A stretch of 21,793 nt of DNA from the IMG/VR virus record IMGVR_UViG_3300013010_000081, positions 1 to 21,793 of that record; one strand, 5' to 3'. Positions within the stretch are counted from its first letter, which is position 1; every line of letters begins with the position of its first letter. A model generated the notes under the pieces. It ran no database searches. It was not told where the DNA came from and saw only the letters and a program-made list of their open reading frames with translations. The position numbers and the translations under genes were made by a program. The stretch comes from a virus. Positions 1,890 through 11,641 of this stretch are shown here, piece by piece.

Positions 1890-2537
1890 ATGAAACACAA
1901 AAAGAACATATGGCCAGCGGACAAAGTAGAGCGAAGAAAAACAGACTCACTTGTTCCGTATGCAAGAAACGCACGAACGCACAGCGAGCAACAAGTGTCA
2001 CAAATAGCCGAAAGCATTAAAGAATGGGGATGGACTACCCCGGTATTGATTGATGAAGAAGGCGGTATCATTGCAGGTCACGGCAGAGTACTAGCAGCGC
2101 AACAACTAAGTTTTGATGAAATCCCTGCAATGGTAGCTACGGGATGGACTAAAGCGCAAAAACAAGCATACGTTCTTGCAGATAATCAAATACCTCAAAA
2201 CGCCGGATGGGATATGGATTTGCTGAAAATCGAAATAAAAGATTTATCCAGCAAAAAATTTGATTTGAACCTGATCGGTTTTAATGATGGCGATATTATG
2301 AATTTAGCTTTGCCTGTTGAAGAGGGTGAAACAAACGCATATGAAGAATGGGAGGGCATGCCAGATTTTGAACAAAATGATAAAACATCATTTCGCCACG
2401 TCATTGTGCATTTTGAAAACAATGAAGATTTAGCTAAATTTTTTAGCCTTATAGGGCAAAGCCATACCGATAAGACCAAATCTGTATGGTTTCCAGAGCA
2501 AGAAAATATGGACACAGAGTCAAAAAGATATGGGTGA
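1890..2537 (+). CDS. ParB/Srx-fold nuclease-like protein, DNA-modification type
   Basis: 215 residues; AGGG at 1882-1885 is the ribosome binding site. Residues about 14-105 form a ParB N-terminal domain: 'LVPYARNARTHSEQQV', 'ESIKEWGWTTPVLID', the GHGR motif at 63-66, and 'ADNQ' at 97-100. The segment 'NAGWDMDLLKIEIKDL…FDLNLIGF' (104-131) is what follows ParB domains fused to phage DNA methylases. Here no methylase domain (no DPPY or FxGxG) follows. Instead there is an acidic linker and a ~45-residue module, 'RHVIVHFENNEDLAKFFSLI' plus 'KTKSVWFPEQE' (169-205). No partition helix-turn-helix is seen, so plasmid or chromosome segregation is unlikely. Its 8-nt overlap with the glycosyltransferase gene argues for a shared job in DNA modification. 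Function is inferred. Confidence 0.8.
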   Translation: MKHKKNIWPADKVERRKTDSLVPYARNARTHSEQQVSQIAESIKEWGWTTPVLIDEEGGIIAGHGRVLAAQQLSFDEIPAMVATGWTKAQKQAYVLADNQIPQNAGWDMDLLKIEIKDLSSKKFDLNLIGFNDGDIMNLALPVEEGETNAYEEWEGMPDFEQNDKTSFRHVIVHFENNEDLAKFFSLIGQSHTDKTKSVWFPEQENMDTESKRYG

Positions 2538-3456
2538 TTTAAATCCTCAGTTTCCTTTGTACATTCCAAGCAAAGGACGATCTGAGTATATGATTACGTC
2601 AAAGTATTTAACTTATATGGGGGTTAAACATAATGTTGTAGTTGAACCAAGCCAAATGGATGACTACAGAAAAGCAATAAAATCAATGGATTTGCTTGCT
2701 ACTGCCGTTGAACTTGATTTGTCTTACAAAGAAAAATACGAGCTTTGCGACAATCATGGTTTAACAAAATCAACAGGGCCGGGGCCTGCTAGAAACTTTG
2801 CTTGGGATCATTCAAAGTCTAATGGTTACAATTGGCATTGGGTTATGGACGACAATATCCGCAGTTTTCGGCGTTTAAACAAAAATGAAAAAATAAAAGT
2901 CACTAACGGTTCTTTGTTTACAGCGATGGAGGATTTTTGTTTGCGATATGAAAACGTATCTATGGCTGGGCCAAATTATTATATGTTTGCACCTTCACGC
3001 GTTAAGCAACCGCCATTTATAACTAACACACGCATATACTCCTGTAATTTTATTAGGAACGATGTGCCTTTTCGATGGCGAGGCCGGTATAACGAAGACA
3101 CCATTATGTCAATAGATATGCTAAAAGCAAAATGGTGCACCGTCCAATTTAATGCATTCCTTCAAGAAAAAATGGCAACTCAAACTGTAAAGGGCGGAAA
3201 CACTGACGAACTTTATCAAGTAAATGATAAGCCAAAAAATGGCGAAAAGTATTCTCAAACTGGCACCATAGACAAATCCAAAATGATGATAACAACTCAC
3301 CCAGATATTTCTTCAATAGTTCACAGATTTGGTCGTGTTCATCACCATGTAAATTACAGTCAATTTAAAAAAAACAAACTTATTCGCAAAAAAGATGCCG
3401 AAGTTTCCAACGGCATCAATAATTATGGAATGCAAATAGTAGTTAAGAGTTCATAA
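2530..3456 (+). CDS. TET-associated-type glycosyltransferase (TAGT-like), putative DNA base glycosyltransferase
   Basis: 308 residues. The GT-A-like layout is visible: opening beta strand 'LYIPSKGR' (10-17), a turn 'GPGPARNFAWD' (83-93), the metal/nucleotide-sugar motif MDDN at 106-109 within 'HWVMDDNIRSF', and the acceptor-side 'GRYNEDTIMS' (185-194) with the acidic E189/D190 pair. A His-rich 'GRVHHHVNY' (268-276) lies near the C-terminus. This combination matches the phage glycosyltransferases described beside TET/JBP dioxygenases, which put sugars on hydroxymethylated pyrimidines in DNA. There is no signal peptide or membrane segment, consistent with a cytoplasmic DNA-modifying enzyme. The start overlaps the ParB-like gene by 8 nt and the 3' end overlaps a reverse-strand gene by 14 nt. 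Enzyme class is fairly sure; DNA as substrate rests on family and neighbour. A sugar transfer to protein or lipid is the alternative. Confidence 0.78.
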   Translation: MGDLNPQFPLYIPSKGRSEYMITSKYLTYMGVKHNVVVEPSQMDDYRKAIKSMDLLATAVELDLSYKEKYELCDNHGLTKSTGPGPARNFAWDHSKSNGYNWHWVMDDNIRSFRRLNKNEKIKVTNGSLFTAMEDFCLRYENVSMAGPNYYMFAPSRVKQPPFITNTRIYSCNFIRNDVPFRWRGRYNEDTIMSIDMLKAKWCTVQFNAFLQEKMATQTVKGGNTDELYQVNDKPKNGEKYSQTGTIDKSKMMITTHPDISSIVHRFGRVHHHVNYSQFKKNKLIRKKDAEVSNGINNYGMQIVVKSS

Positions 3457-3655
3457 TATGTACCGCGTGATCATTTTCTCCAACTGCGTAGATCATAGTT
3501 CGGTTATCGCCATAGGAAAGGTTAGCGTACCGAATAGCTTGCGCCAAAGTTTTGAATTCTTTTCTGTCAAACTGTCCTCGCCCTTTAAAACGCACTGCTG
3601 TAAACAAATGAGCCGTTTTAACAACGTGGTCGTGAAATTCTTGAAGCGTTTGCAT
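3443..3655 (-). CDS. small hypothetical phage protein (reverse strand)
   Basis: 70 residues, starting MQTLQEFHDHVVKTAHLF, with 'FKTLAQAIRYANLSYGDNR' and 'MIYAVGENDHAVHI' near the end. AAAAGGAA lies a few bases before the start on the reverse strand, and its ATG follows 3 nt after the stop of the upstream reverse gene, so the two are probably co-translated. The sequence has normal amino-acid variety, whereas the opposite-strand frame is Cys/Phe-rich and shadow-like. It resembles short phage proteins that cannot be named. Its last 14 nt overlap the end of the glycosyltransferase gene in convergent orientation. Confidence 0.72.
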   Translation of the reverse strand: MQTLQEFHDHVVKTAHLFTAVRFKGRGQFDRKEFKTLAQAIRYANLSYGDNRTMIYAVGENDHAVHIMNS

Positions 3656-3658
3656 AAT

Positions 3659-3886
3659 TTATTCCTTTTCCAAGCTATTGGCAATTTCATGCCAGTTTAC
3701 ATCTGCAAGAAAAGCCAAAGCATAATCGCGAGCAATGCCGCTAGACTGTTGTTCAATATGCTCTTCAACCAAATCTTTACAAAAGTCTGCGTCAGTGTTT
3801 TTCCAAAGATCAGTGCTAGGAAAACATTCTTGTGCAATGCGCCATGTGGCGTAATTAGTCCAACCGTTGTATAATGTATCAACCAT
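3659..3886 (-). CDS. 'NGWTNYATW' small phage protein (reverse strand; DUF7249-like)
   Basis: 75 residues from the ATG at 3886 (reverse). I prefer this to the in-frame ATG at 3919 because AAAAGGATAT lies just before it at 3890-3900. The sequence MVDTLYNGWTNYATWRIAQE carries the Tyr/Trp-rich motif of a widespread small phage family annotated as DUF7249, followed by an acidic helical stretch and 'IARDYALAFLADVNWHEIANS'. Function is unknown. With the next gene it forms the only reverse-strand transcription unit in the window, between the modification and packaging blocks, which suggests separate timing. The 82-bp divergent gap before the terminase would hold its promoter. Confidence 0.8.
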   Translation of the reverse strand: MVDTLYNGWTNYATWRIAQECFPSTDLWKNTDADFCKDLVEEHIEQQSSGIARDYALAFLADVNWHEIANSLEKE

Positions 3887-3910
3887 GGTAATATCCTTTT
3901 GTTGTTGATA

Positions 3911-3947
3911 TTTACACAATAAGGCGATTACTTAATAAAGTAAACAA
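3911..3947. promoter_or_regulatory. candidate divergent promoter/operator
   Basis: The AT-rich gap between the reverse-strand pair and the terminase genes holds candidate -35/-10 pairs in both directions. Forward: TTTACA 3911-3916 with TAATAA 3933-3938, spacing 16. Reverse: TTTACT (complement of 3939-3944) with TTATTG (complement of 3917-3922), spacing 16. The two arms TTTACACAATAAG and CTTAATAAAGTAAA form an imperfect inverted repeat around GCGATTA. AT-rich sequence gives such matches easily, so this is a suggestion. Confidence 0.35.
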
Positions 3948-9075: not shown

Positions 9076-9310
9076 AATATCAAAAGACGACTTTCGTTTG
9101 GTTTTTGGATCAGAGGAAGGCAAAAGGGTTCTATCTCATATTTGCCGTGAGTGCGGTGTTCTAAGACCTTCGTTTGTTCCGGGCGAGGCGTTGGAGAATA
9201 CTGCTTTTAACGAAGGCATGAGAAATGTAGCGTTGATGATACTCACAGCACTTGACGAAACACCGGAGCGTTTCATAAAACTTTCACAGGAGATTACAGA
9301 AAATGCCTAA
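9068..9310 (+). CDS. Bbp19-like small protein
   Basis: 80 residues starting at TTG 9068, with GGAG at 9058-9061. 'DFRLVFGSEEGKRVLSHICRECGV', 'RPSFVPGEALENTAFNEGMRNVALMIL' match the Bbp19-like pattern (named from a Bordetella podophage) regularly found between portal and scaffold genes. Known copies have no assigned activity. Two cysteines in 'HICRECGV' recur in relatives. Both ends overlap neighbouring genes by 8 nt, so it is translated in a coupled chain with portal and scaffold, and a part in head assembly is likely. Confidence 0.82.
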   Translation: MSKISKDDFRLVFGSEEGKRVLSHICRECGVLRPSFVPGEALENTAFNEGMRNVALMILTALDETPERFIKLSQEITENA

Positions 9311-10142
9311 CGAAACCGCACCTGCCGAAATGGCAGATAATGCGCCAGAAGTTAGCGAACCCCTTACAACTTCAGAAATCGCAGACGACGATTGGCGTTC
9401 CTCACTTTCAGAGGACATCCGCGAAGACCCCAGCTTCTCAAAATTTAAAGATGTTAATTCGCTTGCAGCTTCTTATGTGAACTTGCAAGGGCATCTTGGC
9501 CGGGACAAGATTGCCAAGCCAGTTACAGATAGCGATTGGGATGGCGTATATGACTTCTTGGGGAGACCAGAAAGCCCAGACAAATACGAAGTGGAATTGC
9601 CTGACGAGCTTCCAGATCAAGTCAAAGCACAATTCAATGATGAGACATTGTCTTCGTTTAAGCAGCAAGCTCACAAGCTAGGGTTAAACGCTGAACAAGT
9701 TAAAAGTCTAGTCGCATGGCAAGCTGGCAGCATGGGCCAGCAATACGAAGCCATGAATGAGATTCAAGGCAAGTCGATTGAAGACGGGGAACGTGCGCTC
9801 AAAGAAGAATGGGGCCGCGCCTATGATCAGAACATTGATTTTGCCAAAAAGGCTTTCAACGAATATGGCGGTGATTCGCTTGCAGCTAAGATGGAAGCAA
9901 GCGGCCTTGGAAATGACCCTGATGTACTAAAGGCGTTTGCTAACATTGCAAAGTCTACAATGGCAGACAAAGACCTTGTCGGCGCAACAAGCGGTGCAAA
10001 GATGGCCCTGACGCCAGATGAAGCTAAATCAGAAGCAGCATCAATCATGGCACATCCGGCTTACACAGATCGTAAGCACCCGGAGCACAACGCCCTAGTT
10101 AAAAAGGTTCAAGGCTTGTTCAGTGAAGCATATGGCGAATGA
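9303..10142 (+). CDS. capsid assembly scaffolding protein
   Basis: 279 residues, acidic and mostly helical. The N-terminal 50 residues are Glu/Asp/Pro-rich and probably disordered. 'LAASYVNLQGHLGRDKIAKP' and 'YDFLGRPESPDKYEVELPDEL' are segments I know from podoviral scaffolds, followed by 'EWGRAYDQNIDFAKKAFNEYGG' and the C-terminal 'ALTPDEAKSEAASIMAHPAYTDRKHPEHNALVKKVQGLF'. The basic C-terminal helix is the usual coat-binding part. It would direct shell assembly and then leave. AGGAG 9288-9292 is its ribosome binding site. Position between portal and capsid supports the call. Confidence 0.87.
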   Translation: MPNETAPAEMADNAPEVSEPLTTSEIADDDWRSSLSEDIREDPSFSKFKDVNSLAASYVNLQGHLGRDKIAKPVTDSDWDGVYDFLGRPESPDKYEVELPDELPDQVKAQFNDETLSSFKQQAHKLGLNAEQVKSLVAWQAGSMGQQYEAMNEIQGKSIEDGERALKEEWGRAYDQNIDFAKKAFNEYGGDSLAAKMEASGLGNDPDVLKAFANIAKSTMADKDLVGATSGAKMALTPDEAKSEAASIMAHPAYTDRKHPEHNALVKKVQGLFSEAYGE

Positions 10143-10308
10143 TATGGATGAAGCCCTTATCAAGTTACAATGCTTGCAGTTGGCTCACAGCGGGTCGCCA
10201 CAAAATACAATAGCAATCGCCGAAGAGTATTTTAATTGGATCGTTGAAAAGCCAAAGGTAATTGAACCATTGCAAAAGCGGGGCAGACCACCTAAACTAA
10301 AAACTTAG
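10132..10308 (+). CDS. small protein with C-terminal RGRPPK motif
   Basis: 58 residues if started at ATG 10132; GTG 10123 and ATG 10144 are alternatives in frame. It overlaps the scaffold stop by 11 nt. 'DEALIKLQCLQLAHSGSP' and 'IAIAEEYFNWIVEKP' are helical, and the end KRGRPPKLKT resembles an AT-hook. Similar short proteins with 'AEEYFNWI' occur next to scaffold genes in phages, but I cannot name a function. DNA contact through the basic tail is an inference. It is the last gene before a strong terminator. Confidence 0.65.
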   Translation: MANDMDEALIKLQCLQLAHSGSPQNTIAIAEEYFNWIVEKPKVIEPLQKRGRPPKLKT

Positions 10309-10332: not shown

Positions 10333-10364
10333 TACCCTCGCTTCGGCGGGGGTATTTTTGTTTT
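10333..10364 (+). terminator. rho-independent terminator
   Basis: Stem TACCCTCGC (10333-10341), loop TTCG, stem GCGGGGGTA (10346-10354), giving 9 pairs with one G-T wobble, followed by TTTTTGTTTT. The UUCG tetraloop and U tract make this a strong terminator for the portal-scaffold transcript. Confidence 0.93.
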
Positions 10365-10449
10365 AAAAAAAATTATTTATTTTACTAAGAAATTTGATTA
10401 TGCTGCGTCTAACTTATGTAAGCAGACAGAAAAGGATTTACACAAAGCA

Positions 10450-10581
10450 ATGACAAAATTAAATAAAATTGTTAAAGAACTACGCGCAACAAAAGACAAA
10501 GACCTTATTGCTCTTGCCAACGTGATAACGGACGAGCGCGTCCTGCAAAATATTTTTAATTACGTTAAAGAAAAGAAATAA
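10450..10581 (+). CDS. 43-residue hypothetical protein between two terminators
   Basis: ATG 10450 to TAA 10579-10581 encodes MTKLNKIVKELRATKDKDL then IALANVITDERVLQNIFNYVKEKK. It is predicted fully helical and basic, with hydrophobic residues spaced as in an amphipathic helix pair. An AGAAAAGGA ribosome binding sequence lies at 10428-10436, 13 nt from the ATG, longer than ideal. An independent transcript is implied because a terminator precedes it and another follows 5 nt after its stop. A weak -35 (TTGATT 10394-10399) and -10-like TATGTA (10415-10420, spacing 15) lie upstream. Function is unknown; a regulator or host-takeover peptide is possible. Confidence 0.55.
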   Translation: MTKLNKIVKELRATKDKDLIALANVITDERVLQNIFNYVKEKK

Positions 10582-10586
10582 AAGGG

Positions 10587-10611
10587 TAAGGGCTTCGGCC
10601 CTTATTTTTTT
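10587..10611 (+). terminator. rho-independent terminator
   Basis: Perfect 7-bp stem TAAGGGC (10587-10593) / GCCCTTA (10598-10604) with a TTCG loop and seven T after it. It closes the 43-codon ORF and blocks upstream transcription from entering the capsid gene. Confidence 0.93.
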
Positions 10612-10634
10612 GTGGTTTCCAAAAAGGAAAAATG

Positions 10635-10643
10635 TGTTATATT
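10635..10643 (+). promoter_or_regulatory. candidate extended -10 promoter, capsid leader
   Basis: TG at 10635-10636, one base, then TATATT at 10638-10643 forms an extended -10 element just after the second terminator. The -35 region (TTTCCA 10616-10621, spacing 16) is poor. It would give a leader of about 120 nt before the capsid gene. Confidence 0.35.
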
Positions 10644-10704
10644 AAATCAGCCTTTTAACTAAATGGACAATTCCGCTCGGAACCCATTCAAGCATTTAGG
10701 CAGC

Positions 10705-10734
10705 TTGGGCCGTCTTGGACGATAACCCTATAAT
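10705..10734 (+). promoter_or_regulatory. candidate promoter for the major capsid gene
   Basis: TTGGGC at 10705-10710 and a perfect TATAAT at 10729-10734, spacing 18. It lies 35 bp before the capsid ATG and downstream of two terminators, where a promoter is needed. The leader would be about 28 nt. Confidence 0.55.
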
Positions 10735-10768
10735 CACTGTTTTTTAAACTCTCAAAGGAGAAATCCGT

Positions 10769-11641
10769 ATGTCTATTAATGTGACAACGGCCTTTGTCGA
10801 ACAGTATAGTGCCAACGTCCAACACCTCGTCCAGCAGGACGGGTCTAAGTTGCGTGGTCTAGTTCGCGAAGAAGCCGTAGTTGGTAAGAATGCATTTTTC
10901 GATCAAATCGGCGCAACTGCCGCACGTCGTCGCCCTTCCCGACACTCTGATACCCCTCGCATCGACACGCCACACTCGCGTCGTCGTGTTTCACTTGAAG
11001 ACTTTGACTGGGCTGACCTTATCGATGATGAGGATAAAGTCCGTATGCTTATCGACCCAACTTCGCAGTATGCTCAAGCCGCTGCTAAAGCTATGGGCCG
11101 TGCAATGGACGAAGTCATCATTGATGCTGCTCTTGGAACTGCCTTCACTGGCGTTTCTGGCTCAACATCAACGGCTGCTCAAACAGCTTTAAGTGATCAA
11201 ACTTCCAACATGAACCTAGACTCACTTCTGGCTATCAAAGATAATTTTGATAGCAACGATGTTCCCGACGAAGGTCGTGTCATTGTTTGTACTTCTTCAC
11301 AGATCAAAAGCCTGTTGAACACGACAGAGATTCAATCTGCCGACTTTAACACGGTAAAGGCTTTGGCTCGCGGTGAAGTAGACACATTTATGGGCTTTAA
11401 GTTCATTTCTGTTAACGGTCTTCGTACTGACGGCACTAAGCTCGTACCAGTGGCAAGTAGCAACAGACGTTGCTTTGCTTTCCAAATGGACGGTCTTCTG
11501 TTGGGTGTCGGTCAAGACATGAATACGAAAATTTCGGAACGCGCTGATAAAAACTATGCTACGCAAGTCTTCTGCTCAATGAGCATTGGCGGCACACGCA
11601 TGGAAGAAGCTCGTGTTCTCGAAGTTCCGTGTTCTGAATAA
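10769..11641 (+). CDS. major capsid protein
   Basis: 290 residues with a strong ribosome binding site (AAAGGAG 10754-10760). The N-terminus 'VTTAFVEQYSANVQHLVQQDGSKLRGLV', then 'GKNAFFDQIGAT', 'RHSDTPRIDTPHSRRRVSLEDFDWADLID' and 'DKVRMLIDPTSQYAQAAAKAMGRAMDEVI' are the hallmarks of the Phage_capsid_2 family of podoviral coat proteins, which adopt an HK97-type fold. It is the shell subunit and should be one of the most highly expressed phage proteins. Its own promoter candidates, isolation by two terminators and strong Shine-Dalgarno agree with that. No sign of a frameshift-extended form. Confidence 0.93.
   Translation: MSINVTTAFVEQYSANVQHLVQQDGSKLRGLVREEAVVGKNAFFDQIGATAARRRPSRHSDTPRIDTPHSRRRVSLEDFDWADLIDDEDKVRMLIDPTSQYAQAAAKAMGRAMDEVIIDAALGTAFTGVSGSTSTAAQTALSDQTSNMNLDSLLAIKDNFDSNDVPDEGRVIVCTSSQIKSLLNTTEIQSADFNTVKALARGEVDTFMGFKFISVNGLRTDGTKLVPVASSNRRCFAFQMDGLLLGVGQDMNTKISERADKNYATQVFCSMSIGGTRMEEARVLEVPCSE

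Follow-up and report, generated by a model that had tools for sequence, protein, structure and literature searches.

A putative moron-like single-gene insert between two terminators at the scaffold–capsid junction of a podovirus-type phage

Introduction

Morons, as characterised in the portion of PMC4378225 on which we draw, are single coding regions that lie between two adjacent phage genes, carry their own promoter and their own terminator, differ in composition from their surroundings and are expressed from the prophage or affect the host. The DNA examined here (the window, 21,793 bases at its full length) is a virus record, a fragment that carries the late genes of a podovirus-type phage: terminase, Head-tail_con portal, scaffold-type protein, Phage_capsid_2 capsid and tubular tail protein. 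It is a piece of such a phage and a distant relative of pelagiphage HTVC010P. Its capsid protein is 57–60% identical to those of HTVC010P (59.8%), HTVC203P and Skadi, and in the window, as in HTVC010P and HTVC203P, the portal gene is followed by a small gene, the capsid assembly protein gene, a second small gene and the capsid gene. Skadi-1, a cultured relative, encodes no RNA polymerase of its own, and in the passages considered its authors identified no terminators (PMC10504331). Since Skadi-1 lacks a polymerase in that account and the capsid gene of the relatives described below is preceded by a sigma70-like promoter, intrinsic terminators fit the biology of these phages. By capsid identity the nearest kin of the window are uncultured contigs, namely L001 (95%) and L083 and L084 (both 94%).

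Results

The region between the scaffold and capsid genes of the window is laid out as follows.

9303–10142, + strand: gene for a scaffold or capsid assembly protein, upstream unit (phrog_3742, E 1.6e-54)
10144–10308, + strand: s54, a 54-aa gene that closes the scaffold unit (alignment and relatives)
10333–10362, + strand: T1, terminator of the scaffold unit (fold −19.2 kcal/mol; matches the relatives' terminator)
10376–10404, + strand: promoter candidate for ORF43, TTTATT-17-TATGCT (390 of 1000 shuffles equal or better)
10430–10437, + strand: possible ribosome-binding site, AAAAGGAT (duplex −5.6 kcal/mol)
10450–10581, + strand: ORF43, a 43-codon ORF (codon usage, G+C)
10580–10611, + strand: T2, second terminator (−16.5 kcal/mol, z −4.29)
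10616–10643, + strand: capsid-gene promoter, TTTCCA-16-TATATT with TG before the −10 element (position and −10 kept upstream of the leader in relatives)
10650–10768, + strand: conserved capsid-gene leader, probably structured, a neighbour that lies outside the insert (alignment of sister leaders)
10769–11641, + strand: major capsid protein gene, downstream unit (PF19821 Phage_capsid_2, E 6.1e-83; phrog_3437)

The scaffold gene occupies the position of the 'putative capsid assembly protein' of HTVC203P and also matches a protease-type family (phrog_458, E 1.7e-16). The s54 gene that follows is conserved in relatives, with seven invariant columns in a 13-sequence alignment, and was found at 72 loci in viral contigs; apart from a weak PHROG hit (E 0.076) it matched no family. 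Its basic tail, RGRPPK or similar, resembles an AT-hook. Elsewhere in the window, at 1890–3453, a ParB-like protein (PF02195, E 1.5e-5, just below the cut-off) adjoins a TET-associated glycosyltransferase (PF20691, E 5e-41), and the two may form a DNA base modification module. Two small ORFs of 70 and 86 aa with no Pfam match lie on the − strand at 3446–3919, opposed to the late genes.

The preliminary description had placed two UUCG terminators 232 nt apart on either side of a 43-codon ORF, and scanning, folding and the ORF coordinates all bore this out. The T1 stem (10333–10354) has 9 bp, a UUCG loop and then TTTTTGTTTT, and its folding energy of −19.2 kcal/mol corresponds to a z of −5.45 against 200 shuffles. 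The T2 stem (10587–10604), also with a UUCG loop, has 7 bp as scanned and 14 bp when pairing between the A-tract and the U-tract is included, and folds at −16.5 kcal/mol (z −4.29 against shuffles); the spacing between the two stems spans 10355–10586. Because its stem runs into the U-tract, T2 was missed by a stricter terminator scan and was seen by folding and by a relaxed scan, while one scan listed it on the − strand only.

We compared the junction between s54 and the capsid gene across 28 distinct junctions, the window included. L136, which has neither this clade's terminator nor its leader, was dropped from an initial 29 long junctions, and junctions shorter than 150 nt, which belong to other clades, fall outside the count. 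The relatives have the order scaffold gene, s54, one terminator, sigma70-like promoter, conserved leader, capsid gene; exactly one terminator was present in 26 of the 28 junctions, with two in the window and in L107. The closest relatives, L001, L083 and L084, resemble the window in having s54, terminator, promoter and leader, and differ from it in having a single terminator and neither ORF43 nor T2, their junctions measuring 189 nt as opposed to 460 nt in the window. The ORF43 frame is absent from these close relatives, not broken, and it is missing from all 27 of the relatives' distinct junctions, 24 of which also hold no other inserted unit or gene. T1 has the place and the core, CTCGCTTYGGCGGG, of the single terminator in L001, L083 and L084, and the poly-T and promoter that follow T2 match the sequence that follows the relatives' single terminator. 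Since T1 thus matches the terminator of the relatives and the sequence beyond T2 matches what lies downstream of theirs, ORF43 and T2 together read as an added piece; on this comparison, T1 is the ancestral terminator of the scaffold unit and T2 would have come with ORF43.

Additional material was found in four of the 28 distinct junctions (window, L014, L100 and L107), which suggests that the spot tolerates insertions. In L014 it comprises two small basic genes at about 1090–1508, and the same junction occurs in L170 and L171. By eye, these two genes resemble ORFs of the window at 1451–1624 and within 1428–1880, and from their sequence we read the pair as displaced phage genes or a displaced module. 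L107 carries at 3178–3335 a promoter-like sequence similar to TTGACG-17-CATAAC (recognised by eye and unscored), a short stretch and a terminator, after which comes the usual terminator. L100 has, at 974–1153 and just before the capsid promoter, TTGCGC-17-TATATT followed by a short stretch with a terminator at its end. Neither of these two units has an obvious ORF on reading, and both are candidate small RNAs of the s54–capsid junction. In a group with 252-nt junctions (L015, L016 and L117), the sole terminator is preceded by a longer AT-rich stretch, which was not counted as an insert.

ORF43 runs from ATG to TAA (10450–10581), and its predicted product is basic, with a mass of 5.0 kDa and a computed pI of 9.7. 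An ATG-initiated + strand ORF of this length arose in 2.7% of 5000 dinucleotide shuffles of 10355–10586, a share that rose to 6.1% with ATG, GTG and TTG starts and to 18.1% on either strand; length by itself is therefore weak evidence of coding. Codon usage is much stronger evidence, and by these statistics ORF43 looks coding: its score of 0.157 bits per codon stands at the 25th percentile of 131 real gene pieces and was reached by none of 2000 stop-free permutations and by two of the 138 other ORFs of 30–60 aa in the window, some of which may be real genes. Its composition looks foreign, with 32.6% G+C compared with 46.2% for the window, a value as low as this being found in two of 486 equally long gene pieces. 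We consider it unlikely that the frame is a chance or decaying ORF, left over from a longer gene or lying in spacer DNA, and does not work as a gene. Such a reading is helped by the unremarkable length (2.7–18.1% of shuffles), by a frame open for 90 codons from stop to stop, from which a 5′ part could have been lost, and by the outcome of the homologue and promoter searches given below, with no homologue found and no promoter above chance. Against it stand the gene-like codon usage, equalled by none of the 2000 permutations and two of the 138 other short ORFs, and the strong terminator of the gene's own that comes immediately after the stop codon, as is usual for a functional gene.

A single-sequence AlphaFold2 model of ORF43 has three helices at a pLDDT of 85, and an antisense ORF of that region, used as a presumed non-coding control, reached 86.5. 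Because the control scored as high, we rejected model confidence as evidence of a real protein. The earlier characterisation of the ORF as helical agrees with the three modelled helices, although their confidence is matched by the control, and we describe the protein as probably helical on the strength of the model. A Foldseek comparison of this model with PDB and BFVD returned no match with E ≤ 0.001.

Sequence searches with ORF43 against Pfam, PHROGs, NCBIfam, PADLOC and PDB sequences gave nothing usable. Nor did a homologue turn up among 50,697 phage records, where the best E was 6, in 72,556 plasmids, by peptide pattern in IMG/VR and GTDB contigs, in HTVC010P-type pelagiphages or in 33 related records searched whole. 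ORF43 is thus provisionally unique among the records searched, a set in which near-identical records may not show. Three kinds of match were set aside: phrog_12730 (E 0.039), since the same family also matches seven of 14 control genomes; tblastn matches in Gordonia and Pseudoalteromonas phages (E 6–8), judged to be chance, which sit within annotated, unrelated genes of 222 aa and 104 aa (one record each); and blastn matches of phages to the inter-terminator interval, which, judging from 20 of the 203 records, cover its two ends only, as generic terminator-like pieces.

For expression signals, shuffle scoring (1000 shuffles) found no promoter above chance between T1 and ORF43; the best candidate, TTTATT-17-TATGCT at 10376/10399, was matched or beaten by 390 of the shuffles. 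The Shine-Dalgarno-like AAAAGGAT sits 12 nt from the ATG, a long spacing, with a duplex energy of −5.6 kcal/mol. Of the insulated mini-transcript proposed in the preliminary description, the extra unit between the scaffold and capsid units and its own terminator hold up; a promoter of its own is no more than a candidate (390 of 1000 shuffles). As no promoter is evident for ORF43, read-through of T1 is a live rival: ORF43 could be the last cistron of the scaffold unit, having brought no promoter and being expressed at a low level through a leaky T1 that acts as an attenuator. The interval does lie on the s54 strand, directly downstream of s54, and lacks an above-chance promoter after T1. We nevertheless hold this arrangement to be distinctly unlikely, given that T1 combines a U-tract with a strong hairpin (−19.2 kcal/mol, z −5.45) and that a conserved promoter serves the capsid gene separately, which would be expected were T1 truly the end of the upstream unit.

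The suggestion that the transcript itself acts as a small RNA found no backing. With T2 included, the predicted RNA 10390–10612 has a z of −1.54, and 15 of 200 shuffles fold as well; its degree of structure does not stand out clearly from that of shuffles, a result that weighs against a role as a small RNA. No Rfam match reached the gathering score, and only sub-threshold matches were listed at E up to 10. A small regulatory RNA terminated at T2, with an incidental ORF, is made conceivable as the product of the unit by the short promoter-like and terminator-closed units without an obvious ORF in L100 and L107, but the modest fold (15 of 200 shuffles as stable), the Rfam result and the coding-like codon usage of ORF43 render it highly improbable.

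The neighbouring capsid leader (10650–10768) is probably a structured element. Three of its helices are 98.9–100% paired across 24 sister leaders, with modest covariation; the alignment does not keep a fourth helix, P1, in register. These 24 come from 27 leaders found by the anchor, L014, L083 and L117 having been dropped as copies or near copies; L179 has no anchor. No Rfam match at the gathering score was obtained for the window and 16 loci, and the leader model built here does not reach other clades. The leaders of other phages that carry this capsid family (103 representatives) differ from it but look similarly patterned by eye, with GGAUAA/GGACA ... CCC motifs. The leader is possibly an undescribed class of capsid-leader RNA. 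Capsid relatives were also encountered in bacterial genome contigs (L238–L258), many of them alphaproteobacterial MAGs, with one Phyllobacterium and five Akkermansia-group loci; their setting suggests prophages or co-binned phages.

Discussion

Collectively, our results favour the view, which we regard as probable, that ORF43 and T2 are a recently acquired, moron-like single-gene insert encoding a 5-kDa basic, probably helical protein. A moron-type extra unit had been anticipated from the window by itself, and the comparison with relatives strengthens that idea: they have one terminator where the window has two, and the added ORF43 and T2 are coding-like and foreign in composition. The insert would have entered between T1 and the capsid-gene promoter. 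In this arrangement T1 would end the scaffold transcript and keep most late transcription out of ORF43, and T2 would end the ORF43 transcript ahead of the capsid promoter and leader; with this insulation on both sides, the gene could be gained without upsetting capsid expression. ORF43 itself would be transcribed either from a weak sigma70 promoter within 10363–10449 or by read-through of T1, and would then be translated. We suppose that its product has its effect outside the virion, on the host or on a competing phage. Judged by sequence, ORF43 seems to be an unremarkable accessory gene of presumably recent gain, with any estimate of its age and spread provisional.

A bolder proposal, for which we see only a small chance, is that the interval from T1 to the capsid promoter serves this lineage as a permanent point of entry for unrelated mini-units closed by terminators and that ORF43 is a previously unseen host-acting miniprotein; the similar U-tract seams of the terminators might act as recombination points. 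If the probable reading of ORF43 as an insert is true, the junction would offer a clean example of gene gain without upsetting capsid expression in phages whose late genes rely on host-type promoters and intrinsic terminators, it would be a place to seek further small accessory genes or RNAs in related marine phages, and the protein of 43 residues would be a candidate for a miniprotein that acts on the host.

Among known systems, HTVC010P and HTVC203P differ from the window at this junction, with a gap of about 95 nt that holds no annotated gene. Unlike small RNA genes, the ORF43 unit shows no structure clearly beyond that of shuffles and no Rfam match at the gathering score. Relative to morons as presented in the portion of PMC4378225 used here, the ORF43 unit differs in that its promoter candidate is no better than shuffles. 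As with morons, it is a single short coding region set between genes that neighbour each other in related phages, and it has a terminator of its own, T2, and a G+C content unlike that of its neighbours. With coding judged by statistics only, the unit therefore shares four of the six moron features taken from that source.
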